From contig NZ_VAJL01000001.1 in the NCBI RefSeq assembly GCF_006175945.1, positions 682,001 to 746,000 of the forward strand: a stretch of 64,000 nt of DNA, given 5' to 3'. Position numbers and translations under genes: made by a program. Below are positions 3,829-33,721 of the stretch, piece by piece. Positions within the stretch are counted from its first letter, which is position 1. Every line of letters starts with the position of its first letter. The notes under the pieces were generated by a model. That model saw nothing but the letters and a program-made list of their open reading frames with translations, was not told where the DNA came from and ran no database searches. This stretch comes from Chryseobacterium mulctrae (GTDB taxonomy: Bacteria; Bacteroidota; Bacteroidia; Flavobacteriales; Weeksellaceae).

Positions 3829-4129
3829 GATGCAAAAATTATAAATACAAGAATTGAATATTTCAATTTCATTTTATATAAACTTAAAATATTTTACTAA
3901 TGTTATTCCTATTTCTCTAAAGCAAAAAAACTTAAAATACAGATTTAATAAAAAAAAATCAAAAATGATTATTATAAATAAATCTAAACTCATATCATTT
4001 TTCATTTCTAAAATTTTTAGAATAATCGTTATCATATTATAAATTCCCATTTTTCAGTATTGATTTAAATCATGATTTTTATTTTAATTAATTCTAAATA
4101 AAAATAATAAGTTTACAGCTCGAAAATTT
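3829..4129. other. AT-rich intergenic region
   Basis: This gap is about 300 bases and extremely AT-rich. Open frames in it are short, low-complexity (I, K, F, N) and unlike any protein. The only signal I see is the word AATTCTAAATAA at 4090-4101, 29 bases before the T9SS gene start. The same word occurs at the heme locus (32171-32182). Confidence 0.5.
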
Positions 4130-7100
4130 ATGTATGATGACAAATCGATTTTTAAGCTGTTGAAAAAAACAGTTACGAAAACAAAACTCAGCTTATTTGG
4201 AGCTTTAGTTTTGTCAACTTGGCAAGTTAATGCCCAAACAGTTTCCCTTTATTCTTTTTCACAAAGTGCGGGAACTTACACAGTTTTAACAAATCCTACC
4301 AATATTGCTGTTGCTACAGCGAGTTCGGGAGCCGGTTTCTTAGATGAGAATGTTTATACGCTTGACAATGTTATTCCGTTTCAGTTTTCATTTAATGGCA
4401 GTTCTTATAATTCTGTAAAGGTTCATGCGAACGGATTTATCAGTTTTGGAGCCACAACTTCCAATTCTACAGATCCTATTTCTTCAGGATTGGCTTATTC
4501 AGGCGTAATCTCTCCTTTAGGAGCAGATTTAGCTTCGATGTTTAATATTAATAATTTAACAAGTTCAATTGATCATTCTGTGGTAGGAACTGCTCCCAAT
4601 CGTGAATTTGTAGTTCAGTGGAGTCATTTCAGACCATACTCTTCAAACCCGACTGCAAACTCTTATCATGACTGGAATTTTCAGGCTAGATTGCATGAAA
4701 ATGGAACCATAAAATATGTTTACAACCTAAGTTCTCAGGGAGCGCCAAGCGCAACAAATGCCAAAGTTGGTTTAAGAGGAACCGCAAGCAATGATTATGT
4801 GAATAGAACTGCTTCAGGAAATACTTCAAGTAATTGGAATAATTCTACAGCAGGAACGAATTCTTCTTCAGGAATTGCTACCAATTATAATTTTTTACCT
4901 TCTCAAGGATTGACTTTCAATTGGACTCCGCCTTCAACTTGCGTTGCACCTACTTCACAGCCGACGAATTTAACTTTAAGCAATACTGGAATTATCATCA
5001 ATGGTAGTTTTACAGGAAGTTCACCTTCAGCAGATAAGTATTTAATTTTAAGAAATTTAGCGGGAACAGTTCCCAATACTCCGGTAAACGGAACAGTTTA
5101 CACAACCGGAAATAATACTTCTTTGAACAGTTATGTTGCTTATTACGGAACAAACACTACTTTTGAGAATAATTATAATCATGGAATCAAAGGAAACAAT
5201 CAGTATACTTACAGAATTTATTCTGTAAGCTCAAACTGTTCTAATGGGCCGTTGTATAATGTTCAGAATCCTTTAACAGCAAATATCACAAACTGCCCAA
5301 TCAGTGTAAGCGGAATTACGACATCAAGTGCTGCTACCAATTCATTCAACATTAATTGGTCTGTTTCAGAAAACGGAACAGCGAATGCGATTAATACCGT
5401 TTTAGAGGTTGCAACAGACAGTAATTTTACCAATATGATCGCAGGTTCTCCGTTTACTTTATCTGCAACAACAGTTTCACAGCCTGTAAATGGTTTACAA
5501 CCCAACACTCAATATTATATTCGAGGGAAAAATGTAAGTACACAATGTGAAAGTTCATATTCTAGTACTTCAACTGTTCATACAACTTGTCTTGCCACTT
5601 CTATGTTGAACGAAAATTTCGATTCGGTTACAGGAACAAATAATCTTCCGAACTGCTGGAGTAAAATTTTAACATCAAACAACAGCTCTACTCCAACCAT
5701 CAGTTTAACGACCACAGATAATTTTTCGGCACCAAACAATATCAGTTTCTATGGAAACGGAGCAACCACTACTGATGCTGCAACAAAAATTATTTTGGTA
5801 AGCCCGGAACTGAACAATATCAACAGCGGAACACACAGACTGCGTTTCAAAGCGAGAAGAACTGCTGCAGATACAAAAGTGCAGATCGTAGCTTTAACAG
5901 GAAATACAGCTTCTGCAAATGTAGAAATTATTCAGACCTTACCTTTAACAACAAATTATGAGGAATATATAGTTTACATCAATAACTACAGTGGTTCAGC
6001 AAACTATCTTGGAATCAGAAGATTTGACGGTGGAACATGGTCTTATATGTATGTAGATGATGTGATTTGGGAGCCTATTCCGACTTGTCCGGAATTAGCA
6101 ACCATTACTTTAAACAGTACAACACCAGTTGGAGCCAATATTTCTTGGACAAATGTTAACGATCAACAACCAGCAAACGGTTACGAATATATTGTTACAA
6201 CAACGAATACAACTCCGGCTAATAACTCTGCAGTTACAACAATAGCATCAGGAACAAATACTATCAATCTTTCGTCACTTTCAAACGGAACTTATTATTT
6301 CTGGATAAGAAGACTTTGTTCAGCAACAGAAAAAAGTCCTTGGAAATCTATTTCATTTATAACAGTTCCTACCGCTCCGGCACCTTGGAAAGAAGAATTT
6401 TTAACATCAAATTTCCCTAATGGATGGACTGGATGGACAAACGGAACGAGCCCACAATCATTCACTTTAGGTACAGTAAGAGGAGCCACAGGAAATGGTG
6501 TATCTGCAAACAATTTATATAAAAACATGTTTAATAATGCGGCATCAGGAACTTTCAACACCATTGCAGTTGGACCTTTGAATGCGACAGATTATACTTT
6601 TAGTTTTGATTACAAACAATCAAATTACAATAGCCCTCATGCATCATTAACAGATTGGGGAAATTTTGAAGTGCAGATCTCTACAGATTTCGGAACAACA
6701 TGGGCAACGCTAGGAACCGTGGATAACGAAGCTGGAACAGGAAGCTATATTACAAAAACATATTCTTTAGCAAATTATCTGAATCAATACATAAAAATCA
6801 GAATCAATGCGAACAGAACTGCTGGAGATTATGACCTTTCTTTTGATAATTTTGAAATAAAATCTCCCGGAAATGTAAATCCGTTCTGTTTACCAACTTA
6901 TCAGTACAATTCGAATGGAAATATGATTACAAAAGTAACATTTAACACCATTGATAATAGTTCGCCTGCTACATCTGGAACTACTCCATCGTATGAAGAT
7001 TTCACAAATATTTCTACAGATATTAGTCAGGGAAATACGTACCAAATTTCTGTAAAAGGACCTTCAAGTACTTTCCCGAGTGACGTGATGGCTTATATAG

Positions 7101-7627
7101 ATTTTAACCACAATGGTATTTTTGATGATACCGGAGAAAGTTTTTATATTGGACAACTTGCTGACGCAAACCCTGCAAATGCAAATACCATTACATCCAA
7201 TATTACCATTCCTTCAACCGCTGTTTTAGGAAATACCAAAATGCGTATTGTGAAAAATACCAATGTTGCTGCTTATTCAAATCCATCTGCACCAAACTCT
7301 ATTTCCGGTCCTTGTGCAACAGATTTAAGAGCAGGCCAGGTTGAAGATTATGCCGTAAATATTGTGGCTGGAAGCTTATCAACAACTGAAAACAATATTT
7401 CAAAAGGCACAATTAGAATTTATCCAAACCCTACAACATCAATCATTAAAATTGATCCTAAGGAAAAGATTAGATCTTTCGAACTGTACAATATCTCCGG
7501 ACAATTAATTAAAAAAGGAGGTAAAGTAGAAGAAATATCTTTAGAAAACAATGCTTCAGGAGTTTATATCATTAAAATTACTTTGGAGAACAATGAAACG
7601 AGTGTTTCAAAAGTAATAAAAAAATAA
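4130..7627 (+). CDS. large T9SS-secreted adhesin-like protein with fibronectin-type repeats and GEVED-like domain
   Basis: The 1165-residue protein begins with a signal peptide (basic start, hydrophobic LSLFGALVLSTW, cleavage near VNAQ, about residue 35). A beta-rich N-terminal domain follows. Then come fibronectin-III-like segments starting near CVAPTSQPTNL, ITTSSAATN and CPELATITL, alternating with jelly-roll/MAM-like segments typical of choice-of-anchor or cleaved-adhesin domains (LPNCWSKIL, FPNGWTGW). A GEVED-type domain (AYIDFNHNGIFDD ... AGQVEDYAV) precedes the T9SS type A sorting domain (IYPNPTTS ... GVYIIKI ... VIKK). No catalytic motif was seen. It is probably an exported surface or adhesive protein; the ligand is unknown. 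A hairpin terminator follows, so it is monocistronic. Confidence 0.85.
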   Translation: MYDDKSIFKLLKKTVTKTKLSLFGALVLSTWQVNAQTVSLYSFSQSAGTYTVLTNPTNIAVATASSGAGFLDENVYTLDNVIPFQFSFNGSSYNSVKVHANGFISFGATTSNSTDPISSGLAYSGVISPLGADLASMFNINNLTSSIDHSVVGTAPNREFVVQWSHFRPYSSNPTANSYHDWNFQARLHENGTIKYVYNLSSQGAPSATNAKVGLRGTASNDYVNRTASGNTSSNWNNSTAGTNSSSGIATNYNFLPSQGLTFNWTPPSTCVAPTSQPTNLTLSNTGIIINGSFTGSSPSADKYLILRNLAGTVPNTPVNGTVYTTGNNTSLNSYVAYYGTNTTFENNYNHGIKGNNQYTYRIYSVSSNCSNGPLYNVQNPLTANITNCPISVSGITTSSAATNSFNINWSVSENGTANAINTVLEVATDSNFTNMIAGSPFTLSATTVSQPVNGLQPNTQYYIRGKNVSTQCESSYSSTSTVHTTCLATSMLNENFDSVTGTNNLPNCWSKILTSNNSSTPTISLTTTDNFSAPNNISFYGNGATTTDAATKIILVSPELNNINSGTHRLRFKARRTAADTKVQIVALTGNTASANVEIIQTLPLTTNYEEYIVYINNYSGSANYLGIRRFDGGTWSYMYVDDVIWEPIPTCPELATITLNSTTPVGANISWTNVNDQQPANGYEYIVTTTNTTPANNSAVTTIASGTNTINLSSLSNGTYYFWIRRLCSATEKSPWKSISFITVPTAPAPWKEEFLTSNFPNGWTGWTNGTSPQSFTLGTVRGATGNGVSANNLYKNMFNNAASGTFNTIAVGPLNATDYTFSFDYKQSNYNSPHASLTDWGNFEVQISTDFGTTWATLGTVDNEAGTGSYITKTYSLANYLNQYIKIRINANRTAGDYDLSFDNFEIKSPGNVNPFCLPTYQYNSNGNMITKVTFNTIDNSSPATSGTTPSYEDFTNISTDISQGNTYQISVKGPSSTFPSDVMAYIDFNHNGIFDDTGESFYIGQLADANPANANTITSNITIPSTAVLGNTKMRIVKNTNVAAYSNPSAPNSISGPCATDLRAGQVEDYAVNIVAGSLSTTENNISKGTIRIYPNPTTSIIKIDPKEKIRSFELYNISGQLIKKGGKVEEISLENNASGVYIIKITLENNETSVSKVIKK

Positions 7628-22246: not shown

Positions 22247-23119
22247 CTAATAAGTCTTGGTCATATCCGCGGGAATAATCAGATTAAAATCTGTCGGGAT
22301 ATACACTTTCTCAGGGATTTTTAATTCATCATCTTCAGATTCAAAAACAGAGATCACCGCCATTTTCAGATTCGGGTTTTTCTGTTTGATGTACCAGTAA
22401 ATTCCGCCAAATTCTTTACTGTGAAAGTTTCCATTGTAATGAATAAATGTTTTTCCTGGCTGCAGATTATTTAGAATAGATTCTGCCATTGTAGCATCTT
22501 TTGTCGCCTGAGCTGAAATAAAATTCATCACTTTGGTTCCTTCTGCATGATCGCCCATCATTTTTTTCATTTCAGGATAACCCGGCGTGTCTAAAGTTAC
22601 GTTAATCGGCAATTGAGCAATATAAGACTTTTCTTTTTCAGTCAATTTATTTAATGACTCCAAGCCTTCTTTTGCTGTTTGAGACGCATATTTTCTTGGA
22701 ATATTAGTTGCAATAAAGTTCAGATTTTTATCTTTTGCAAAATCAACCAAAGGTTTGTAATCAGTCGTATAATTATTCCACAAACGAACAGAATCTTTTA
22801 AACTTTTAGCTTCAATTTTACCGGCAAGATATTTATTAAGCTGTGGCTGATTATCTCTTTCAAACATTTCGGCACCCAAAGTAATCTGCTTATTTTTTTG
22901 ATCATACAACCCTTCTGTTACTTTTAACTGAAGCCAGTGCACAATTGAATTATTGTGAAGTTCCCCAAAGAAAACAACATCATAATCAGCAAGCTGTTTA
23001 ACCATTTTTTCAGCTTTAATGGCTTTTCCTTTTTTATTATAGAATTGATACGATTTAAAATTCTGCGCTTTGAATGCAGAAAATCCTAAAACCAATATGG
23101 CGATAAAAATATTTTTCAT
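22247..23119 (-). CDS. ChaN-family heme/iron-regulated protein
   Basis: From ATG 23119 the 290-residue protein has a signal peptide (MKNIFIAILVLGFSAFKAQ) and the ChaN/Haem_bd_uptake pattern: VVFFGELHNNSIVHWLQL, LGAEMFERDNQP, LWNNYTTDYKPLVDFA, and IHYNGNFHSKEFGG near the end. ChaN of Campylobacter binds heme between two monomers. There is no lipobox, so it is probably periplasmic or surface. It is the last gene on this strand of the heme locus but is separated from hmuS by a terminator and inverted repeat, so it is expressed separately or by read-through. The start was set at the Met preceding the signal peptide. Confidence 0.85.
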   Translation of the reverse strand: MKNIFIAILVLGFSAFKAQNFKSYQFYNKKGKAIKAEKMVKQLADYDVVFFGELHNNSIVHWLQLKVTEGLYDQKNKQITLGAEMFERDNQPQLNKYLAGKIEAKSLKDSVRLWNNYTTDYKPLVDFAKDKNLNFIATNIPRKYASQTAKEGLESLNKLTEKEKSYIAQLPINVTLDTPGYPEMKKMMGDHAEGTKVMNFISAQATKDATMAESILNNLQPGKTFIHYNGNFHSKEFGGIYWYIKQKNPNLKMAVISVFESEDDELKIPEKVYIPTDFNLIIPADMTKTY

Positions 23120-23140
23120 TTTATATTTTTTGATTTTTTT

Positions 23141-23245
23141 AAACACAAATGGAACAAATGACTTCACAAATATCACAAATAATTATTGATTATAAATTTA
23201 CAAATTAGTGCTATTCGTGAAAAAAAAATTGTGAAATTTGTGTTT
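23141..23245. repeat. imperfect long inverted repeat (AAACACAAAT ... ATTTGTGTTT)
   Basis: Arms near 23141-23172 (AAACACAAAT, CTTCACAAAT) and 23228-23246 (TTGTGAA, ATTTGTGTTT) can pair with mismatches. The element fills the gap between chaN and the hmuS terminator and has the composition of a dispersed intergenic repeat. Confidence 0.5.
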
Positions 23246-23254
23246 AAGTTCAAC

Positions 23255-23292
23255 AAAAAAGACCGTTTTGAATCTTCAAACAAAACGGTCTT
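23255..23292 (-). terminator. intrinsic terminator of the hmu operon (after hmuS)
   Basis: Perfect 12-bp stem AAGACCGTTTTG (23259-23270) with CAAAACGGTCTT (23281-23292), 10-base loop; T run on the minus strand. It marks the end of the hmuR-to-hmuS unit. Confidence 0.9.
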
Positions 23293-23311
23293 CATCCAAT
23301 CATCTAATTAT

Positions 23312-24340
23312 TTATTTTTCAAGATCTGCTACCAAATCTTTCCATTCTTGTAGTTCAGGGATTCCCGGCTTTCTTTTTCCGAAGAATTGTACGATAAACT
23401 CGCCTTCGCTGTTGAATACTTCGATTGCCGTAACTTCACCATCTTCAGTTGGTTTTTTCACGATCCAAGCTTCAGCGATCTTTGTAACATCTAAATGTAA
23501 ATTGAAATCAGGATCCATTACATTAAACCATTGTTGGTGCCACATTGTTTTTTTCACTTCTCCGGTGTGAATCTGAATAATTCCTCTGTTTCCAACGAAA
23601 ACCATGATCGGAAGTCTCTTTTCAGAAGCATCTTCCAAAACGTTTACTACTTTTGAAGGATCAATTTTTTTAGCATAACCTTCCGGAGCCAATCTCAAAG
23701 CCTGAGTTCTAGAAACACCGAATTTTCTGGTCATCATAAAGAAATCGTGTGTATCTTTAAGTTCTGTCCAAGCTTTTTTGAAACCTTCAGCATCGATTTC
23801 TGAATCTTCTTTTTCAGGAGCTTTTGGAGCAACTGCTTCAAATTCGAAAACTTCATTCTGATCTTCAGCTTTAAACTGAGCAACGATAGGTTCGAAAGCT
23901 TCAACATTGCTGTCTTTCGTTAAATAAATTTTGTGAAGTGCTAAACCATCTTTTCCGAAGAATTGAAGACTCTTTTTGTCACCTTCAACCACAGCAAAAG
24001 CAAATTTCCAGTGATTTTGGAAGATTCTCAAATCGATATCTTCGCCTACAAAAAGCTGTGCATGAGGACTGCTGAAATCACCGTTTAAGTAAGTTCCTTT
24101 TCTTTCGTGAACGCACTCGTCGTTTCTTGTTAGAGCCATTACTTTTCCTAATTTTTCAACTTCTGTTAAGATGTTTGCAAATTCAGGTTTCAAAACGGTT
24201 ACTTCTTCTCCTACGTTAGTTAATAATAATTCTGCTTCGCTTACACCTAATTCTGCAGCGGCATTTCTTATTCTCATATGTGGATTTTCTGCTTTCAGAG
24301 CTTCCCATTTTTCTTTCAAATCGTTAACTATTGTATTCAT
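23312..24340 (-). CDS. hmuS: hemin-degrading factor HemS/HmuS
   Basis: The 342-residue cytoplasmic protein has the duplicated HemS/ChuX fold of this family. The first half shows RIRNAAAELGVSEAELL and MALTRNDECVHERKGTY, whose His is in the position of the heme ligand; the second half repeats the pattern with FGVSRTQALRLAPEGYA and VFVGNRGIIQIHTGEV. Family members hold or degrade heme delivered by HmuTUV. It follows the methyltransferase gene by 5 bases and ends at a strong terminator. Confidence 0.94.
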   Translation of the reverse strand: MNTIVNDLKEKWEALKAENPHMRIRNAAAELGVSEAELLLTNVGEEVTVLKPEFANILTEVEKLGKVMALTRNDECVHERKGTYLNGDFSSPHAQLFVGEDIDLRIFQNHWKFAFAVVEGDKKSLQFFGKDGLALHKIYLTKDSNVEAFEPIVAQFKAEDQNEVFEFEAVAPKAPEKEDSEIDAEGFKKAWTELKDTHDFFMMTRKFGVSRTQALRLAPEGYAKKIDPSKVVNVLEDASEKRLPIMVFVGNRGIIQIHTGEVKKTMWHQQWFNVMDPDFNLHLDVTKIAEAWIVKKPTEDGEVTAIEVFNSEGEFIVQFFGKRKPGIPELQEWKDLVADLEK

Positions 24341-24345
24341 TTTAT

Positions 24346-24996
24346 TTATTTTTTTATGGTTAAAACTGTGTAAATTCTTTTGATTAATTCGTCTACGGTT
24401 TTGCTTTTTATTTCTTCTTCTTTTTCAGAAATTTTCATTCTTTTAAAAAGACTTTTAGAAACCGTTTCTTCCATTTCATCAGAATTGTAAAGGGTAAAAT
24501 CAAATTGAGTAAAAGGTAGAGTTTCCATGAAATCTCTCTGCCCGAAAGTAAGAACAAATGTTCCGTTCTTTTTTAAAACCCTGTAGATTTCATTTAAATA
24601 TTCTACCGGATCTTCCCAGAAGTAAACGGTGTTTACGGTAAATATTTTATCAAAGGTCTTATCTTCAAAAGGCAGTTTCGTTCCCTCATACAAAACAAAT
24701 TCTGCCTGATTTTTAAATGTTTCATTTAATCTTTTAGCTTCAAGATGCATCGTTTCAGAAATATCAATTCCTGTGTATTTTATGTTTTGAGCTAAACTTA
24801 AAAGACTTTTTACGTGAGCTGCATTTCCGTGACCAATTTCAAGAATGTGCTCATCATCTTCAATTAAAAGAGTTTTGATGCTTTCCAACGTCATTCCGAT
24901 GTTGGTTTCATTCATCATTTCTCCAATCTGAATACCTTTTTCGCCTTGCGGATTGGCAAGGTTTTGTGCTAATATTTTTAAATCTTTTTGTTCCAT
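24346..24996 (-). CDS. class I SAM-dependent methyltransferase in the heme operon
   Basis: The 216-residue protein has a Rossmann methyltransferase core: motif I ILEIGHGNAAH, acidic IDISETM, FDKIFTVNTVYFWEDP and VLKKNGTFVLTFGQRD (Methyltransf_11 type). Its substrate is not evident. It is embedded between hmuV and hmuS with gaps of 1 and 5 bases, so it is certainly co-transcribed with heme uptake genes. Possible roles are modification of a heme breakdown product or of a siderophore-like compound; both are inference. Confidence 0.85.
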   Translation of the reverse strand: MEQKDLKILAQNLANPQGEKGIQIGEMMNETNIGMTLESIKTLLIEDDEHILEIGHGNAAHVKSLLSLAQNIKYTGIDISETMHLEAKRLNETFKNQAEFVLYEGTKLPFEDKTFDKIFTVNTVYFWEDPVEYLNEIYRVLKKNGTFVLTFGQRDFMETLPFTQFDFTLYNSDEMEETVSKSLFKRMKISEKEEEIKSKTVDELIKRIYTVLTIKK

Positions 24997-24997
24997 A

Positions 24998-25768
24998 TTA
25001 TCCGAAAATGATCATTGGGTTTTTAGTAATCGGATGATCGCAAATAGTACATGGAAAATTGTAAGCTTCGCTGATATTTTCAGCCGTAAAAACTTCTTCC
25101 GGCGTACCGTATGCTGCAACCTGTCCTGATTTCATCAATAAAATTTTATCTGCGTACTGAGCGGCCAAATTTAAATCGTGCAACACAACCACTGCAGAAT
25201 TTTCATGCTTTGTGAAATTTTTAATGATCTCTAAAGCTTTATACTGATGTTTTATATCTAAATTATTCAGAGGCTCATCCAAAAAAACCAGTTTTTGAGT
25301 GATCTCATTATCCAATTGAGCTAAAACTCTCGATAAATGCACCCTTTGTTTTTCTCCACCCGACAAAGTATTGTATTCTCTGTCTTTCAAATGATAAACA
25401 TCGGTTTCATACATCATTTTGTTCATCGCTTCATGATCTTCCTTTTTGGGTTGAGCATCAAAATACGGGTAACGTCCCATCATCACGACATCTTTTACTT
25501 CCAAAGGAATATCGTTGGAGTTGTGCTGAGAAAATTTAGCCTTATGTTTTGAAAGTTCGGCAACTTTCCAGTCTCTGATGTTTTTATCTTTAAATAAAAT
25601 CTGATGATTGGTTTTCACTTCATTTGCCAAAACACTCAGTAGACTTGATTTCCCCGCTCCGTTGGGACCAACGATCGCTAAAAATTCGCCAAAGCCTAAA
25701 GAAACATCCACATCATTTAGAATATGAAATTCTTTATGTTTATAACTGATTTGCTGAGCTTTTATCAT
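24998..25768 (-). CDS. hmuV: heme ABC transporter ATP-binding protein
   Basis: The 256-residue ATPase has Walker A GPNGAGKSSL, Q-loop KFSQHN, signature LSGGEKQRVHLSRVLAQL, Walker B LVFLDEPLNNLD and the switch VLHDLNLAAQYAD. It belongs to the FecE/HmuV group that powers heme or siderophore import. Its first base overlaps the last base of hmuU, so the two are translationally coupled. With HmuT and HmuU it forms the inner membrane heme importer. Confidence 0.93.
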   Translation of the reverse strand: MIKAQQISYKHKEFHILNDVDVSLGFGEFLAIVGPNGAGKSSLLSVLANEVKTNHQILFKDKNIRDWKVAELSKHKAKFSQHNSNDIPLEVKDVVMMGRYPYFDAQPKKEDHEAMNKMMYETDVYHLKDREYNTLSGGEKQRVHLSRVLAQLDNEITQKLVFLDEPLNNLDIKHQYKALEIIKNFTKHENSAVVVLHDLNLAAQYADKILLMKSGQVAAYGTPEEVFTAENISEAYNFPCTICDHPITKNPMIIFG

Positions 25769-26808
25769 TATACTGACTTTTTAAATTTCAACAAAATAGC
25801 AATGAAAATAGGTGCTCCCATCATTGCCGTTAAAATTCCGATGGGCAATTCTGATGGTTCTACTACACTCCTGCTCACTGTATCTGCTGTAAGTAATAAA
25901 ACACTACCAAAAATGGCAGATAATGGCAAGATAAAACTGTAATTAGATTTGAATAAAAGCCTTAAAATATAAGGTACAATTAATCCTACAAAACCAATTG
26001 TTCCGGAAAAAGCCACACAACTTCCCACCATTAATGAAACGATGATAACAATTTGTTTTTTTAATCTTTCTACATTAATTCCTAAATGCTGTGCGTCTTT
26101 TTCCCCTAACATCATCGCATTTAAAGCCTTTCCTTTAGGGAGAAGAATAGTGTAAGAAATAATCAAGATCACCGCTAAAATAATATTCTTCGTCCACGTT
26201 GCTGCGGCTAAACTTCCCATATTCCAGAAGGTTAGATCTCGCAATTGCTCATCTTTTGAAATATAAATCAGAAACCCTGTGATAGAAAAACCGATTGCAG
26301 AAATGGCAACGCCCGATAAAAGCATCATGACCACATTGGTTTTCCCTCCGCTTGTAGAGATCTTGTAAACCAGCAACATTGCAAGAAGAGAACCTATAAA
26401 AGCCGCAATCCCGACAAGGGAAAATTGTACTGCCTCAGGAAGATATTCTCTGAAATGCCCTCCTAAAACAATTGTAATTGCCGCCATTAATGTAGCTCCT
26501 GCCGTCAATCCTATTAAATCTCCGGTTGCTAAAGGATTCCTGAATAACCCCTGCAAACTGGTTCCTGAAACCGAAAGCATACTTCCGATAATGATTGTCA
26601 TCACGATTCTAGATGCTCTCACATCCCAAACAATATATTTATCACTTAAAGACAAGTCAGACTCTCCTACAATTACTTTCCATAAAACTTCAAACGCAGA
26701 TCTATCACCGAAATCATAAACCCCTGTATTCAAAGACCATACTGCTATAAAAACGAGCAGTATGGTACTTAATATCATGTAAAAGTATAATTTACTTTGT
26801 GCTTTCAA
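25768..26808 (-). CDS. hmuU: FecCD-family heme ABC transporter permease
   Basis: The 346-residue protein has about ten hydrophobic segments and the FecCD signatures: RASRIVMTIIIGSMLSVSG, LFRNPLATGDLIG, and the cytoplasmic coupling region GFVGLIVPYILRLL. It is the membrane channel of the HmuTUV heme importer. Its start overlaps the end of hmuT by 17 bases, indicating tight coupling. Confidence 0.94.
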   Translation of the reverse strand: MKAQSKLYFYMILSTILLVFIAVWSLNTGVYDFGDRSAFEVLWKVIVGESDLSLSDKYIVWDVRASRIVMTIIIGSMLSVSGTSLQGLFRNPLATGDLIGLTAGATLMAAITIVLGGHFREYLPEAVQFSLVGIAAFIGSLLAMLLVYKISTSGGKTNVVMMLLSGVAISAIGFSITGFLIYISKDEQLRDLTFWNMGSLAAATWTKNIILAVILIISYTILLPKGKALNAMMLGEKDAQHLGINVERLKKQIVIIVSLMVGSCVAFSGTIGFVGLIVPYILRLLFKSNYSFILPLSAIFGSVLLLTADTVSRSVVEPSELPIGILTAMMGAPIFIAILLKFKKSV

Positions 26809-27670
26809 CTAAAAGTTTATTTAATGAAACTGCAGCCTCACCTAGTCTAGGACCGAAACCTGAAACTAAACCACCATCCATTGCGATAATTTTTTTGTTT
26901 TTACCCGCATTGGTTTGAGAAACACCCGGCATTTTTAAAGCACCCTCGTTTCCACCTGAACTCTGTAATCCGCTTGAAAAGAAGAACAATACATCAGGAT
27001 TTGCTTTTACCACCGCTTCCGGAGTTAAAGGTTTGAAATCTTCAAAATCATTCACAGCATTTTCTCCTCCTGCCAAATTAATTAAGGCCGCCATTGGTGT
27101 ATTTTTACCAGCAACCATCATCATATTTCCTCTTGCGTAGATGAATAATACTTTTGGTTTTTTAGCAATTGGCTGAATTTGTTTTAAATCGGCATCAATT
27201 TTATCATTTAATTTCTGATAATCTGTGTTTCCTATTGCTTTTGCAACATCAGCAATTAATTTTTTAGTTCCTTCTACTGTATACTCCTGCTTGAAAGTTT
27301 CAGTTTTAATTCCTGAAGCTTTTATTTTACCCATCAATTCTGGGTTGATATCTTTATCTGATCCTAAAATCAATGTAGGCGAAACCGCCATGATTGGCTC
27401 AATCGTAATTGATCTTACATGACCTAAATTTTCTGAAGATTTCTTTAAAGATTCAGGATATGTACTGGTAACATCTGTTGCTACAATTTCTTTTTCGTGA
27501 CCTAAAGCGGCAACAATTTCAGTAATTCCACCGTTTAAAGTTACAATTTTATTGTTTGATTTTGGAGCTTCTGCAACAAGTTCATTTCCGTTTTCTGTAG
27601 GCTTTTGTACTTCTTTTTTGCAAGAATATATTGCCATAAGAACAGAAGCGGCAAGGATGAATTTTTTCAT
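26792..27670 (-). CDS. hmuT: heme ABC transporter substrate-binding lipoprotein
   Basis: The 292-residue protein has a lipoprotein signal with Cys17 (AIYSCKK) and a class III periplasmic binding protein fold: IVTLNGGITEIVAALG, VSPTLILGSDKD, FIYARGNMMMVAGKN and SGFGPRLGEAAVSL. The Tyr in FIYARG is where HmuT-type proteins carry a heme-ligand tyrosine. It would pick up heme in the periplasm and deliver it to HmuUV. The gap to hmuY is 24 bases. Confidence 0.92.
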   Translation of the reverse strand: MKKFILAASVLMAIYSCKKEVQKPTENGNELVAEAPKSNNKIVTLNGGITEIVAALGHEKEIVATDVTSTYPESLKKSSENLGHVRSITIEPIMAVSPTLILGSDKDINPELMGKIKASGIKTETFKQEYTVEGTKKLIADVAKAIGNTDYQKLNDKIDADLKQIQPIAKKPKVLFIYARGNMMMVAGKNTPMAALINLAGGENAVNDFEDFKPLTPEAVVKANPDVLFFFSSGLQSSGGNEGALKMPGVSQTNAGKNKKIIAMDGGLVSGFGPRLGEAAVSLNKLLVESTK

Positions 27671-27694
27671 TTTATACTGATTATTATTTGATTA

Positions 27695-28804
27695 TTAATA
27701 CAATGGTTTATATTCGAACTGAGCAAAACCTCTTTCACCAGCCTGACCGTTGTGATCTGTGGTAGCTTTTGTAAGTCTTGTGAATCTCAATTTAAAATAA
27801 TTTCCATCGGGATCTTTAATTACATAAAAACGATCACCATATACTTCAAGACCATTGGTTCCTACAGGATTTCTCCAGTTTGCTCCAATTACTCGTTGAT
27901 TATTATAGATGAATTTAGCTGGATCAATATCTGAAATTTTGAAATTTGTATACGCTTCAACTCCTGAAGCCGGCGAAGGAATTACAACCTCATATGCTCC
28001 CGCTCCACCCACATTATTAGTGGTTACAAAGTCTCCGTAAATATAACTTCCTGCTCCTGTAATTGTATTGGTAAATACAGTAAAACACAAATCCCATTTC
28101 TTTTTTTCGGGCTGAATGAAAAGCTCTTTATTATCTTTCAGACTTACAAAGTTGAAGTTGTAAGCTGTATTTTTTGTAACAGTAATTTCTTTATGTTCCG
28201 CTTTATTAAGTTCGGCATATTTTATCTTATAGCCTGTTCCTGATCTTACAATCTGTACTTTCATCCAGCCACGATTATCACCTCCGGTTGTAATTGAACC
28301 AATAGCTGTCACTCCTTTAAAGATATCTTTTCCTAAGTTTACAAGATAAACAGCATTTTCAGAATCATTGGCTTTGATTTCTTCAATTGCAGTGGCTCCT
28401 GAAGGAAAATCTCCGTTAACATCGTCAATATATTCAACGTTTGCAGGATTGAAGTTTGCTACCTGTACCTGATCTTTCAAAGTAGATACACTTGCTTCGG
28501 TAACTAAATCTATATTGGTAGCACCAGCAATTTTTCCCGCTGCCATCATGATTGATGAATTTAAAACTACTTTAAATTCATTTCCTGAATATAGAGCTAA
28601 ATCCCAATCGGTCCTTTTTGTATAAGTTTTAGTATCAGTTCCCAAATCTATCCACACCTGATTTGGCTGTGCAGCACCTCCAACGTTAGCGTCTACCACA
28701 TTACCATCGGTTTTTGAAACCGGAACAGGATCTTCGTTATCATTAATACAAGACTGAGAAATAAAAGAAGCTCCTATTAATAATCCAAATAGTATTTTTT
28801 TCAT
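27695..28804 (-). CDS. hmuY: HmuY-family heme-binding lipoprotein
   Basis: The 369-residue protein has a lipoprotein signal with lipobox QSC (Cys19). It is longer than Porphyromonas HmuY (~216) and shows the family signature in the middle: KKWDLCFTVFTNTI followed by a beta-rich stretch ending in EYKPLY. An N-terminal half with WDLALYSGNEFKVVLN repeats the same W-D-L pattern, suggesting a duplication. HmuY captures heme from host proteins at the cell surface and passes it to HmuR. It lies 10 bases after hmuR in the same operon. Confidence 0.88.
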   Translation of the reverse strand: MKKILFGLLIGASFISQSCINDNEDPVPVSKTDGNVVDANVGGAAQPNQVWIDLGTDTKTYTKRTDWDLALYSGNEFKVVLNSSIMMAAGKIAGATNIDLVTEASVSTLKDQVQVANFNPANVEYIDDVNGDFPSGATAIEEIKANDSENAVYLVNLGKDIFKGVTAIGSITTGGDNRGWMKVQIVRSGTGYKIKYAELNKAEHKEITVTKNTAYNFNFVSLKDNKELFIQPEKKKWDLCFTVFTNTITGAGSYIYGDFVTTNNVGGAGAYEVVIPSPASGVEAYTNFKISDIDPAKFIYNNQRVIGANWRNPVGTNGLEVYGDRFYVIKDPDGNYFKLRFTRLTKATTDHNGQAGERGFAQFEYKPLY

Positions 28805-28814
28805 TTTAATTTAT

Positions 28815-30935
28815 TTAAAAATTATAATTTAATCTGGCGAAATAACTTCTGCCATAGAAAAGATTAGCTGCAGAATCGGCTGCATTATGAGCTGTTCCGC
28901 TTACTGTAGTATCTCTTACTGATGAAACATCAAAAATATTTTTTACTCCTAGACTCAGTTCAAAATGATTATTATAGAATGGTTGAGACACTATAAAATT
29001 CATCATGCTGAAATCTTTTCTTTCGCCAATTACAAAATAAGATGATGTAAGATCTGAAACTAAAACAGGAATCTGAGTTTTTCCTGTATACTTATAGTAT
29101 AAAGATAAAATAGTATTGATTTTTGGAATGGTATAATTTGCAGATAGATTAGCTTCCAAAGTATAGAAGAATTCGTCTGGTGAAGTAGCTCCACCTGCTC
29201 TTAATACTCTGGAAATACCATAGTAAGAAGCATTTGCACCGACAACAAAATTATTTTTCTGAGCTCTGAAATTTGCTTCTACCAAGTAGGATTCAAATTT
29301 ATCAATGTTGATATATTTATATTGTAATGGCGATTGATTAATAAGAGCTAATTCAATTCTATTTTTCAGATTAAGATAAGTACCACTTGTGCCGACTCTT
29401 AGATTCCAGCCAGAACTTGTGCTTATTTTCTTTTCTCCATTTAATGAAACTGTCATTCCTTCTTCAGGTTTAAGATCTGGGTTACCCTGTATATCGTGAT
29501 TACTATCAACCATATAGGTATAAAGTTCATCAAAATTTGGGAATCTGTTTGCGCTACCTACAACCAATCTTATATTATCATTGTCGGTAATTTTTGCTCT
29601 TGCAGTAACAGAGTAATTGTGTTGAGTATCAAATTTATCACTTAAAGCTAAACGATATCCCGGACGAACAGATAACCAACTATTGGCATTCCATTCTACC
29701 GTCATGAAATTAGCATAATTGAAAATTTTTCTCTTTACGTCATTCGCTCCTTGAAAAACTCCCGCCGCATTTCCCGCAAAACCTGAAGTATGATCGAGTT
29801 CGTATCCTAACTGGAAATCAATTTTGTCATTGTTTAAGAAATTACTAAAAACTCCTCTAGAATAAATAACATCTGCTTTATTGTAAGATTTATATTCATT
29901 TTTTTCTGCAGCCTTTCTGTTTGGAACATCATAATCGAAGTCTCTAAATTTTCTGTCTTGTGTTTGATAAGAAAAATCTCCGGTATAATTTATTGCTCCC
30001 AATTTTGTTTGTACATTCAGCTGATTAAGGTATCTCGTGGTAAGATAATCTCTGTCTGTAGCAACATAAGTCCTATTTCCTTCTCCCAAATAAAGTTCAT
30101 TAAGAATAGGATTATAGAAGTTTAATTTTTCGTTTAGATAACCAAACTTATAAAAGATTGATGTTTTATTTTTGCTATATTTTATAATTCCATCAACATT
30201 CAATACATCTTTAGGTTGCCAATCATACCCTCTTTTTCCGTCATTGGTTTCGCTAAAATATTTATAACCTTCACGATCTCCTCTAAAGCCCTGAAAATCA
30301 TTATGATTTATATTTGCTCCTACATACCAGTTTTCATTGATGTTATAACCTACGTTTAAATTCTGAATATGTCTCCCTTCACCTTTCTTATACCAATCGT
30401 ACTCTTTTCCTACGGTTTCTTCCTGTAATGAAGCTGATAAATTTAGTTTTTTATGGCTATTTTTCTTAGTAATAATATTGATAACACCTGCGACAGCATT
30501 AGAACCGTAATCAACTCCCATTGAACCTCTTACGAGCTCAATTCTTTCGATATTATTTACATTAAGTTTAGTTAAATCAATATTATTTCCTAAACCGATA
30601 TCACCAACAACCGGAATATTGTCAATTAGAATTTTAGTGTATTCACCGCCCAATCCCATTAGACTTGCTGTAGAATTTCCAGAATTACGATCTGGTACAA
30701 TTAGAACATTTAAACTTTGATTAAGAACTTCCGCAACATTCGTCACAGCCATATTTTTAATTTGCTGCGCATCGATCACCTCAACTTTATAAATTGATTT
30801 GTTGATTGATTGCTGCATATATTGTCCCGTAATAACAACTTCTTCTATTTTTTTCTGATTTAGAGAATCTTTTTCCTGTGCATTTATCAAAAAAATTGCA
30901 GATAACGACACCACTGAAAACACCTTCTTCTTCAT
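28815..30935 (-). CDS. hmuR: TonB-dependent heme receptor
   Basis: The 706-residue protein has a signal peptide, a TonB-box-like IEEVVITGQY (about residue 30), a plug domain (VLNQSLNVLIVPDRNSG ... ERIELVRGSMGVDYGSNAVAGVINIIT) and a 22-strand barrel ending in FARLNYNF. The heme-receptor NPDL motif is visible (QGNPDLKPEEG) in the position expected after a FRAP-like NRFPNFDELY. It imports heme across the outer membrane with TonB energy. It is first in the hmu operon; the -7 element and a candidate operator lie just upstream. Confidence 0.92.
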   Translation of the reverse strand: MKKKVFSVVSLSAIFLINAQEKDSLNQKKIEEVVITGQYMQQSINKSIYKVEVIDAQQIKNMAVTNVAEVLNQSLNVLIVPDRNSGNSTASLMGLGGEYTKILIDNIPVVGDIGLGNNIDLTKLNVNNIERIELVRGSMGVDYGSNAVAGVINIITKKNSHKKLNLSASLQEETVGKEYDWYKKGEGRHIQNLNVGYNINENWYVGANINHNDFQGFRGDREGYKYFSETNDGKRGYDWQPKDVLNVDGIIKYSKNKTSIFYKFGYLNEKLNFYNPILNELYLGEGNRTYVATDRDYLTTRYLNQLNVQTKLGAINYTGDFSYQTQDRKFRDFDYDVPNRKAAEKNEYKSYNKADVIYSRGVFSNFLNNDKIDFQLGYELDHTSGFAGNAAGVFQGANDVKRKIFNYANFMTVEWNANSWLSVRPGYRLALSDKFDTQHNYSVTARAKITDNDNIRLVVGSANRFPNFDELYTYMVDSNHDIQGNPDLKPEEGMTVSLNGEKKISTSSGWNLRVGTSGTYLNLKNRIELALINQSPLQYKYINIDKFESYLVEANFRAQKNNFVVGANASYYGISRVLRAGGATSPDEFFYTLEANLSANYTIPKINTILSLYYKYTGKTQIPVLVSDLTSSYFVIGERKDFSMMNFIVSQPFYNNHFELSLGVKNIFDVSSVRDTTVSGTAHNAADSAANLFYGRSYFARLNYNF

Positions 30936-30952
30936 AAACTCAAAATTTTCGA

Positions 30953-30978
30953 CAAATATAGTGCTTTATTTAGAATAA
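30953..30978 (-). promoter_or_regulatory. hmuR promoter with candidate metalloregulator site
   Basis: On the minus strand the -7 element TATATTTG (30953-30960) is immediately preceded by TTATTCTAAATAAA (30965-30978). That places a repressor-type site between -7 and -33. The same word recurs upstream of the two divergent T9SS genes. Regulation by iron (Fur- or DtxR-type) is inferred. Confidence 0.55.
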
Positions 30979-31103
30979 GTAAAAATAATTGAAATTTTGT
31001 TAAGATGATATTTTTTAGCATAATTATGATAACAAAACTTTGATAATGATAACTAATGTTAAAAAACCTTTTTGCAAAGTTTTAAAACCCAACTGAAAAC
31101 TAA

Positions 31104-31178
31104 AAACAAGATAAATATCATGCTTTATTTAGAATAATTAAAACTAATCATTGATTTTGCATCATATTTAGAATAATA
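31104..31178 (+). promoter_or_regulatory. duplicated upstream region with ATTTAGAATAA words (decayed T9SS gene side)
   Basis: TTTATTTAGAATAA at 31124-31137 and ATTTAGAATAA at 31167-31177. The stretch 31104-31143 is nearly identical to 32107-32147 before the intact T9SS gene (shared AAACAAGATAAATATCATG then TTTATTTAGAAT). Confidence 0.55.
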
Positions 31179-31998
31179 GGAAAAATTAAATTACTTTTTG
31201 CGGGATTAGTTTTTTCAGCTTTTGCAGTAAATGCTCAAGTGCAAACTATTAACGAAAATTTTAACAACCTTACAACAGGAAATGCAACGTTTCCTCAGAA
31301 TGGTTGGTCTGTTGTACTTCCTCCTATGAATACTCCACCGAGTCCACCACACCAATGATGATTGTTGATGCAGAAGCAGGTGATGCTACAAACAGATATG
31401 TATCATCATATTCTGGAGGTAATAAAGATACTTCGCAATATTTTAGTTGCTCTACAAATTGTTGCTCCGACAGGAAATAAAACTCTTTTATTCAAAGCAA
31501 GAAGGAATTCACAAAATAGCTACAGTAGTTGTTCAAGTCGGATTGGCATCAAATCCTACAGACATGACAACCATCGTTGCGGTAGGCACCAGTTACACTT
31601 TCTGCAAATACTTATCAGACTATCACAAGAGCGATTCCAAGTTCATCTTCTACTCATATTGTTTTTTAAAACGGTAAATGAAATTGCTCTTACACAGCAT
31701 ACAGCAGCTGATTTTGACGATGTTGTTTACGATTTAACCGCTAACTTAGCTGTTTCTGATAATGAAAAGAACAATAGCAATATTCAATTTGCTGTAAATT
31801 CAGAAAATACGGCTTTAGAATTTGTTGCTAAAGGAGAAATTAAAAATACCGATGCTTATTTGGCTTCAGGACAAAAAGTAGCTTCTGGAAAAGCCAACAA
31901 CAATCGTTTTGAAATTAATACATTACAACCGAGGTTTATTATGTTTTAGCTGAATTAAAAATGGCAACGCTATTAAATCAAAATTCATCAAAAAATAA
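31176..31998 (+). pseudogene. decayed T9SS-secreted choice-of-anchor/cleaved-adhesin protein
   Basis: Coding similarity moves among all three frames. It begins with a signal peptide lacking an ATG (KIKLLFAGLVFSAFAVNAQ), followed by NENFNNLTTGNATFPQNGW, typical of a choice-of-anchor J or cleaved-adhesin jelly roll. The pieces MMIVDAEAGDATNRY, IVAPTGNKTLLFKARR, VVVQVGLASNPTDMTTIV, and a C-terminal ADFDDVVYDL followed by a sorting-type tail ending in KSKFIKK come next. At least six frame changes and a lost start codon are present, so it is a decayed gene rather than one sequencing error. Its terminator and upstream motif remain. Cleaved-adhesin domains in Porphyromonas take part in hemoglobin binding, which fits this locus. 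Confidence 0.8.
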
Positions 31999-32017
31999 TT
32001 GAGTAAATATCTTTTTT

Positions 32018-32050
32018 AAAAAGTTGGTTGCATCACGCAGCCAACTTTTT
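32018..32050 (+). terminator. intrinsic terminator after the decayed gene
   Basis: AAAAAGTTGGTTG (32018-32030) pairs with CAGCCAACTTTTT (32038-32050) apart from one G-U pair. Confidence 0.8.
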
Positions 32051-32106
32051 ATTTTAAATCAATGAAATACAATACATTATATGTAAATAATAATTTAAAA
32101 AATTTA

Positions 32107-32182
32107 AAACAAGATAAATATCATGTTTTTATTTAGAATTATTAAAAATAAATATATAGTTTTGTATAACAATTCTAAATAA
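32107..32182 (+). promoter_or_regulatory. promoter and paired candidate operators of the T9SS HmuY-like gene
   Basis: TTTATTTAGAATTATTA (32128-32144), -7 element TAGTTTTG (32157-32164) and AATTCTAAATAA (32171-32182). The two words are inverted and bracket the -7 element, an arrangement suited to repression. Confidence 0.55.
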
Positions 32183-32193
32183 GGAATAAGGTT

Positions 32194-33489
32194 ATGAAAA
32201 CAAAACTATTTTTGGCATCACTTTTTGCTATATCAGTTCAGCAAACTGTATTGGCTCAAACAGATGCAAACGGATACACTACAGTAAATATGACAATGGG
32301 TGGAGCATATGCTAATCGAGTATTTTTTGATCTTTCCGCAAACAGTACTGTTTCGCAGGTAGGAGATAATTGGGATATTGCTTTTTATAGAAATAATGCA
32401 ATGGATAAAGGTGTCAGAATAAATGACGCTAAAACTGTTACAGTTTATCAGGCTTCAGGTATTCCATCAGAATTTGATTCTGTAAATCCATCACAACTAT
32501 CAACTTGGGGGGCTCCTTTATACAATCCTGATCAAACAACTCGTTTACAAGATGGGGCTTTCGATACCGCTACAAAAGCTACCGCTGGACCTTGGAATTA
32601 TGGATGGGGAACTTATAATGTGGGGACACATGTTGTAAACGGAGAAGTAACGTTTGTTTTAGACTACGGTAGCAATAACTATATTAAATTTTTTATTACC
32701 TCATTTGCTAGCGGTTATACATTTAAATATGCTATATGGAATGGTACTTCTTGGGGAGCTACTCAAACCAAAACAATTGCTAATGGAACGGATGATGCTT
32801 ATTTCAATTACTTTTCTTTCACCACAGGAGAAAAAGTTCCGAACTTAGAACCGGCAAAAGCAAATTGGGATATCATGTTTACGAGATATTATACTGACTA
32901 TGTTTATCCAGGAGGATCTATGATGTATAAAATGTCGGGTGTATTACAAAGTCCTACAATTAGCGTAGCGAAGATACAGCCGGAAACTCAGGAGACCCCT
33001 TCAGCAACTTTACCTGCTACAACTGCATTTTCAAGTAATATCTCAGCAATTGGTCATTCATGGAAACCAACAAGCGGTGTCTATACAGATGTAGTATATT
33101 ACATTAAACAAGGTTCAGACTATTATAGATTGTACTTCATTTCAAATGGTGGTACCAATAATGGAAATATGTACTTCAAATACAAAAATATCACTTCAAC
33201 TTTAGGTATTACAGAAGTTAGCAAAAAAGCTTCTTTCGGTATTTATCCAAACCCTACAACGGCTGACAAAAAAGTAACGGTTTTATTTGATGTAAAAGAA
33301 AAAGATAACAACAAAGGAAACGTTGAAGTTTATGATCTTACCGGTAAAAGAGTTTACAATGCAGAACTAAGCAATCAAGCTGGTTTCTACAAGCAAGATC
33401 TTAATTTATCTCATCTTGCATCCGGAAATTACCTCGTAAAAATTACTTACGGTGGAAAAACGGAAACAAAAAAACTTATTGTAAAATAA
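32194..33489 (+). CDS. T9SS-secreted HmuY-like protein (candidate secreted hemophore)
   Basis: The 431-residue protein has a signal peptide (MKTKLFLASLFAISVQQTVLAQ). Two HmuY-like units follow, each with the W-D-I/L signature: DNWDIAFYRNNA (about residue 60) and ANWDIMFTRYYTD (about 225), the latter followed by GGSMMYKMSGVL, closely like KKWDLCFTVFTNT and GSYIYGDFV in the neighbouring HmuY lipoprotein. The C-terminus is a T9SS type A sorting domain (IYPNPTTADKK ... GNYLVKI ... LIVK). It lies divergent from the hmu operon with the same upstream words. I infer a heme-binding protein that is exported by T9SS instead of being lipid-anchored. Direct heme binding is not shown. Confidence 0.75.
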   Translation: MKTKLFLASLFAISVQQTVLAQTDANGYTTVNMTMGGAYANRVFFDLSANSTVSQVGDNWDIAFYRNNAMDKGVRINDAKTVTVYQASGIPSEFDSVNPSQLSTWGAPLYNPDQTTRLQDGAFDTATKATAGPWNYGWGTYNVGTHVVNGEVTFVLDYGSNNYIKFFITSFASGYTFKYAIWNGTSWGATQTKTIANGTDDAYFNYFSFTTGEKVPNLEPAKANWDIMFTRYYTDYVYPGGSMMYKMSGVLQSPTISVAKIQPETQETPSATLPATTAFSSNISAIGHSWKPTSGVYTDVVYYIKQGSDYYRLYFISNGGTNNGNMYFKYKNITSTLGITEVSKKASFGIYPNPTTADKKVTVLFDVKEKDNNKGNVEVYDLTGKRVYNAELSNQAGFYKQDLNLSHLASGNYLVKITYGGKTETKKLIVK

Positions 33490-33646: not shown

Positions 33647-33653
33647 GACTTTT

Positions 33654-33721
33654 CTAGCTTCTAGCTTCTAGCTTCTAGCTTCTAGCTTCTAGCTTCTAGC
33701 TTCTAGCTTCTAGCTTCTAGC
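33654..33721. repeat. tandem heptamer array (CTAGCTT) x ~9.7
   Basis: Sixty-eight consecutive bases are an uninterrupted repeat of CTAGCTT. It starts 8 bases after the terminator and ends 5 bases before the stop codon of the convergent gene 33726-34016. Perfect 7-base unit identity suggests recent slippage. Confidence 0.95.

Follow-up and report, generated by a model that had tools for sequence, protein, structure and literature searches.

A conserved T9SS-tailed HmuY-like protein encoded opposite the heme operon and HmuY lipoprotein of Chryseobacterium mulctrae

The HmuY-family proteins of solved structure considered here are lipoproteins of oral and gut anaerobes. In Flavobacterium, HfpY of F. 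psychrophilum is an HmuY-family protein that binds heme, is co-transcribed with its receptor HfpR and is expressed in iron scarcity (PMC9331221), and HmuY of F. columnare (C6N29_01035) carries an HmuY_like and a Por_Secre_tail domain, is called secreted by the type IX secretion system (T9SS) and is predicted to bind heme (PMC9618737). Riemerella anatipestifer uses a secreted hemophore, RhuH, which is encoded opposite RhuR-RhuA from a shared rhuH-rhuR promoter of 122 bp and coordinates heme through His96 (PMC11967795); these and the other papers cited below are drawn on in part. In this study we analyse a 64,000-nucleotide window of the genome of Chryseobacterium mulctrae (contig NZ_VAJL01000001.1, positions 682,001 to 746,000), in which a minus-strand heme operon (22247-30935) is divergent from a plus-strand gene at 32194-33489, and find it well supported that the 431-residue product of this gene is a real and conserved T9SS-tailed HmuY-like protein.

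The tailed protein and F. columnare HmuY have in common the pair of HmuY_like and Por_Secre_tail domains, a comparison by description only, in which the portion of the paper available names neither a neighbouring receptor nor a second HmuY. A precedent for a T9SS-secreted HmuY exists in that other genus; what is added here is the pairing of tailed and lipoprotein HmuYs, their shared operators, a second cargo gene and a conserved histidine. A literature search with most subscription journals outside its reach turned up no report of an HmuY carried by the T9SS in Chryseobacterium, nor of a two-paralog module, and where papers named both HmuY and Chryseobacterium, the text available spoke of HmuY in connection with Elizabethkingia alone or within a reference. 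An earlier interpretation of this DNA made from its letters alone (the sequence-only reading) had known of no described example in the genus, and to that extent agrees with the search, but the same domain pair had been published for F. columnare. For HfpY/HfpR, unlike the tailed protein, the available text reports no T9SS tail (PMC9331221). The plan of the locus resembles that of Riemerella, with a hemophore opposite a receptor and an outer-membrane heme binder and a Fur box in the shared promoter. RhuH itself differs, since its fold is reported to be unlike HmuY, it is secreted in vesicles and a T9SS tail goes unmentioned in the available part of its description (PMC11967795); its structure 8XJC was not among our sequence matches to E 10 nor among the structure matches listed, which excludes nothing.

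We consider it probable that the tailed protein, with its predicted HmuY fold, is exported through the T9SS, captures heme outside the cell and probably passes it to the HmuY lipoprotein and HmuR. Low iron would relieve Fur repression of both divergent units; the T9SS would then export the protein and a sortase cleave its tail; heme would be bound outside the cell and handed on to the lipoprotein and its receptor. This reading is based on gene content and orientation, the tail, the absence of a lipidation cysteine and the T9SS genes, and further on the predicted HmuY fold, the Fur-box-like sites before both units, conservation and the split in the tree.

The sorting domain recognized by the sequence-only reading at the end of the protein (residues 350-431) scores 59.4 bits with TIGR04183 (cut-off 23) and 56.4 with PF18962 (cut-off 27), and SprA and a PorU-type sortase are found above cut-off in the same genome. 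Cysteine is absent from the tailed protein, and from 80 of the 81 aligned relatives (window included), so that it cannot be a lipoprotein; together with the missing lipobox, this bears out the proposal of a T9SS tail in place of a lipid anchor. The predicted fold, the tail and the missing anchor of the proposed secreted hemophore are supported, and hemophore function itself is likely. The same tail would also suit a protein that binds heme but is attached by the sortase to surface polysaccharide, serving as a surface antenna that feeds HmuR and not as a diffusible hemophore. T9SS type A cargo may remain on the cell surface, as it does in P. gingivalis, and both a type A tail and a PorU-type sortase are present here. 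Yet the F. columnare protein that shares this domain pair is called T9SS-secreted (PMC9618737), and we regard surface attachment as rather unlikely.

Ahead of the tail lies a body whose predicted fold is of the HmuY type, as the sequence-only reading had expected, the model being compared by VIA-align with Porphyromonas gingivalis HmuY (3H8T), PinO, Tfo, BVU_2192, BfrB and BfrC. P. gingivalis HmuY and its kin also have a TonB receptor partner and a heme setting, as here. The solved chains, in contrast, have 176-197 residues where this body has about 318 in two HmuY-like halves, and the tailed protein is unlike them in having a T9SS tail and no lipid anchor. It aligns with the lipoprotein HmuY at 25% identity over 360 columns (E 6e-11), which is less than the close likeness once claimed for their W-D units, although both units do exist. 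The two are the only HmuY-family proteins found in the genome (3 matches at E<=0.001, 2 of them within the lipoprotein). PF14064 scores 39.8 and 33.0 in two of four tailed relatives and is not reported in the other two; in a second set five of nine lie above cut-off (best 53.1, in two stretches), and in one relative from the order (L146) the second half matches positions 4-154 of the family. As axial heme ligand the best candidate, to go by conservation, is His146, invariant in 81/81 near relatives (window included) and kept in 32/33 proteins across the order, as compared with 78/81 and 15/33 for His288.

Conservation was followed in 80 named loci, the best of 114 confirmed, from Chryseobacterium, Epilithonimonas, Soonwooa and one unassigned Weeksellaceae genome, and in 20 order and family loci chosen, not at random, among the better matches outside the genus (two of them, L147 and L148, from the same family). 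The order-wide set of 33 combines 14 of the 81 near rows (window included) with 19 of the 20 outgroup loci, L140 being cut by a contig end; further comparisons used the window with 62 of the 80 named loci, 40 of the 120 listed proteins, or the window with 23 of those 120. At E<=1e-3 the tailed protein matches 401 proteins and a Flavobacterium relative used as query matches 195, with the sorting domain in all 120 listed in each case; the nearest named relative among the matches listed is from Chryseobacterium sp. GP-SGM7 (85% identical). Against C. aahli (L004) the gene shows purifying selection, with 150 synonymous and 31 non-synonymous single-change codons. It faces hmuR in all 80 named loci, and the lipoprotein gene comes next in 79 (in L042 the contig ends inside hmuR). 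In a sample of 99 genomes of the genus, where matches concern the body only, 75 have a strong match (one stop-interrupted, G192, and one in a frame too short for a tail, G261), 11 only a weak one, in a frame about as long as that of a lipoprotein, and 13 none; across a sample of the order a match of any strength occurs in 104 of 395 genomes.

Tailed HmuY, receptor and lipoprotein HmuY occur together in 14 of the 20 chosen outside loci, in 13 of which the genes are co-directional and not divergent, and by eye all 14 lipoproteins start with a lipobox-like stretch ending in cysteine. A tree of the 33 tailed proteins and 20 lipoproteins (14 from the outgroup and 6 of the 24 lipoprotein rows of alignment A3) separates the two kinds by a single branch with support of 100/100, and the host groups on one side are for the most part those on the other. 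Tailed and lipoprotein HmuYs are therefore probably paralogs of long standing that have been retained as neighbours, and on this sequence evidence their split likely predates that of the Flavobacteriales families sampled. It is correspondingly likely that the same cell keeps one HmuY at its membrane and exports the other. A homologous neighbour in the same locus might suggest that a local HmuY copy gained its T9SS tail in this lineage only. This is contradicted by the tree, and the tail is present in 19 of the 20 chosen relatives (16 by a home-made tail profile and 3 by Pfam; the twentieth is cut by its contig end), so we hold so recent a capture to be extremely improbable.

Both divergent units are preceded by Fur-box-like operators, scored out of 19 as matches to the published Riemerella consensus ATTTAGAATTATTCTAAAT (PMC5609570; a variant is given in PMC10986502). 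A score of at least 15 is reached before both the tailed gene and hmuR in 81/81 loci, as against 3.4% of dinucleotide shuffles, the 81 loci being related by descent and so not 81 independent tests. Among other promoters of the same loci (at least 100 bp intergenic) 5 of 474 reach 15 and none 16, and of the 59 promoters in the window the best score belongs to one of these two and the second-best, jointly, to the other. Of 19 outgroup and family loci, 8 score at least 15 within the 200 bases upstream, a figure without a control for that length. Tailed gene and hmuR lie on one promoter of about 100 bp in seven loci, where one site is common to both, an arrangement resembling rhuH/rhuR of Riemerella; one more locus has 390 bp. 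Gel shift shows Riemerella Fur binding to the promoter of hmuR; the gene beside hmuR is there labelled HmuY, and for hmuY, hmuR and the gene that follows, the listed ratios between low and normal iron run from 6.7 to 7.9 (PMC5609570).

Several observations weigh against export of a heme-capturing HmuY. PF14064 gives the tailed protein 28.4 bits in the genome search, barely above its cut-off of 27, and is not reported by hmmscan at E<=1. Foldseek gave no match for the body at E<=0.001 (PinO 1.3e-3; TM-scores 0.22-0.50), so that the fold claim leans on VIA-align, and the predicted model contains no heme. Rooting of the tree is by midpoint only, and L139 and L146 form long branches in it; strong matches are lacking in 24 of the 99 genus genomes, and the gene is therefore dispensable. 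Genome-wide, the excess of Fur-like motifs is modest (50 sites, with 28 for the reversed pattern), and mixed genes flank those sites that were looked at. Growth of F. columnare after deletion of hmuY was not impaired in either iron-rich or iron-limited medium (PMC9618737), heme as sole iron source going unmentioned in the part of that report available. Hhalign pairs neither His146 nor His288 with a histidine of the lipoprotein, and the body is only 12-19% identical to solved HmuYs (top 8 structure matches); with the silent deletion, these are what might be expected of an HmuY-like fold that does not bind heme and has another surface role or ligand, such as other porphyrins or adhesion. The strict association of the gene with hmuR and the heme operon, the Fur-like operators and the invariance of His146 in near relatives argue the other way, and we judge such a loss of heme binding distinctly improbable.

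If the preferred reading of an exported, heme-capturing HmuY is correct, a dedicated HmuY would leave the cells of many environmental and fish-associated bacteria by way of the T9SS. Heme uptake by these aerobes becomes testable with one gene, one domain and one conserved histidine, and a meaning is given to the 401 matched proteins, for which the usual name, where they bear one, is just 'T9SS type A sorting domain-containing protein'.

Between hmuR and the tailed gene lies a broken gene that the sequence-only reading overlooked. When its pieces were searched separately with a profile of intact relatives, six were significant (E 1.9e-36, 4.7e-24, 3.1e-9, 5.4e-8, 2.5e-4 and 4.6e-4, calculated among the region's own reading-frame pieces). 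In 72 of the 80 named loci the gap from hmuR to the tailed HmuY is 1.07 to 2.1 kb and is occupied by an uninterrupted reading frame, 260 to 298 residues long (in three loci 426-431), whose end resembles a T9SS tail by eye in 72/72 and scores above cut-off in the 3/3 tested. Chryseobacterium sp. FH1 (L040) has this cargo gene in two tandem copies. Because it has been lost here while the tailed HmuY looks intact, the tailed HmuY appears to work without it. A wider scheme can be put forward, though we lean somewhat away from it: an ancient two-HmuY relay of the Flavobacteriales, in which a T9SS-exported tandem-HmuY hemophore would strip heme, the lipidated paralog would receive it at HmuR and, in Chryseobacterium, the intervening choice-of-anchor J T9SS cargo would help to hold the heme source. 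Were this relay real, the T9SS would serve the order as a dedicated route for hemophores and would stand alongside export by type I, two-partner and Slam systems, as lipoproteins and in vesicles.

Table 1. Features of the heme locus, by position in the window
Feature	Position	Strand	Basis
T9SS-tailed HmuY-like protein, 431 aa	32194..33489	+	
Predicted signal peptide, residues 1-21, without lipobox	32194..32256	+	by eye
First HmuY-like half, residues 23-190, WDIAF at 60	32260..32763	+	PF14064 match at 32308-32712; predicted fold
Second HmuY-like half, residues 191-340, WDIMF at 225	32764..33213	+	aligns to C half of lipoprotein
T9SS type A sorting domain (Por_Secre_tail) and stop	33241..33489	+	
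Codon of His146, best candidate axial heme ligand	32629..32631	+	inferred from conservation
Codon of His288, second candidate ligand	33055..33057	+	conserved only in near relatives
Fur-box-like operator before 32194: ATTTAGAATTATTAAAAAT (17/19) at 32131-32149, inverted ATTCTAAAT at 32172-32180	32131..32180	+	
Fur-box-like site before broken T9SS cargo gene	31127..31145	+	
Fur-box-like operator before hmuR	30968..30986	-	16/19
Broken gene, remains of T9SS cargo (signal peptide to tail)	31182..31995	+	pieces in all three forward frames
TonB-dependent receptor HmuR	28815..30935	-	open reading frame, family scan
HmuY lipoprotein, two HmuY (PF14064) stretches, lipobox Cys19	27695..28804	-	open reading frame, family scan (80.9 bits)
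HmuT periplasmic binding protein	26792..27670	-	open reading frame, family scan
HmuU FecCD permease	25768..26808	-	open reading frame, family scan
HmuV heme ABC ATPase	24998..25768	-	NF010068 above NCBIfam cut-off, 285.5 vs 261 bits
Class I methyltransferase	24346..24996	-	family scan
HmuS / HemS-ChuX	23312..24340	-	family scan
ChaN-type heme-binding protein	22247..23176	-	family scan

The heme genes named by the sequence-only reading lie where it placed them and belong to the expected families, by open reading frames and family scans (Table 1). HmuR scored above no NCBIfam cut-off in the family scan, so its heme specificity rests on context. The methyltransferase gene between hmuV and hmuS is present in 72 of the 80 named loci, two of the eight exceptions being short contigs; we know of no role in heme use for a methyltransferase in this position. 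Lipoprotein HmuYs of about 470 residues, some 100 longer than those of Chryseobacterium, are encoded at L147:6812-8221 (genus g40) and L130:6976-8379, L130 being a Flavobacteriales genome outside the family of L147. Elsewhere in the window, 4130-7624 encodes a T9SS-tailed protein of 1164 residues with a GEVED domain and a 16/19 Fur-box-like site upstream (4081-4099), and just 3' of the tailed HmuY gene ten perfect copies of the 7-mer TTCTAGC occupy 33652-33721.

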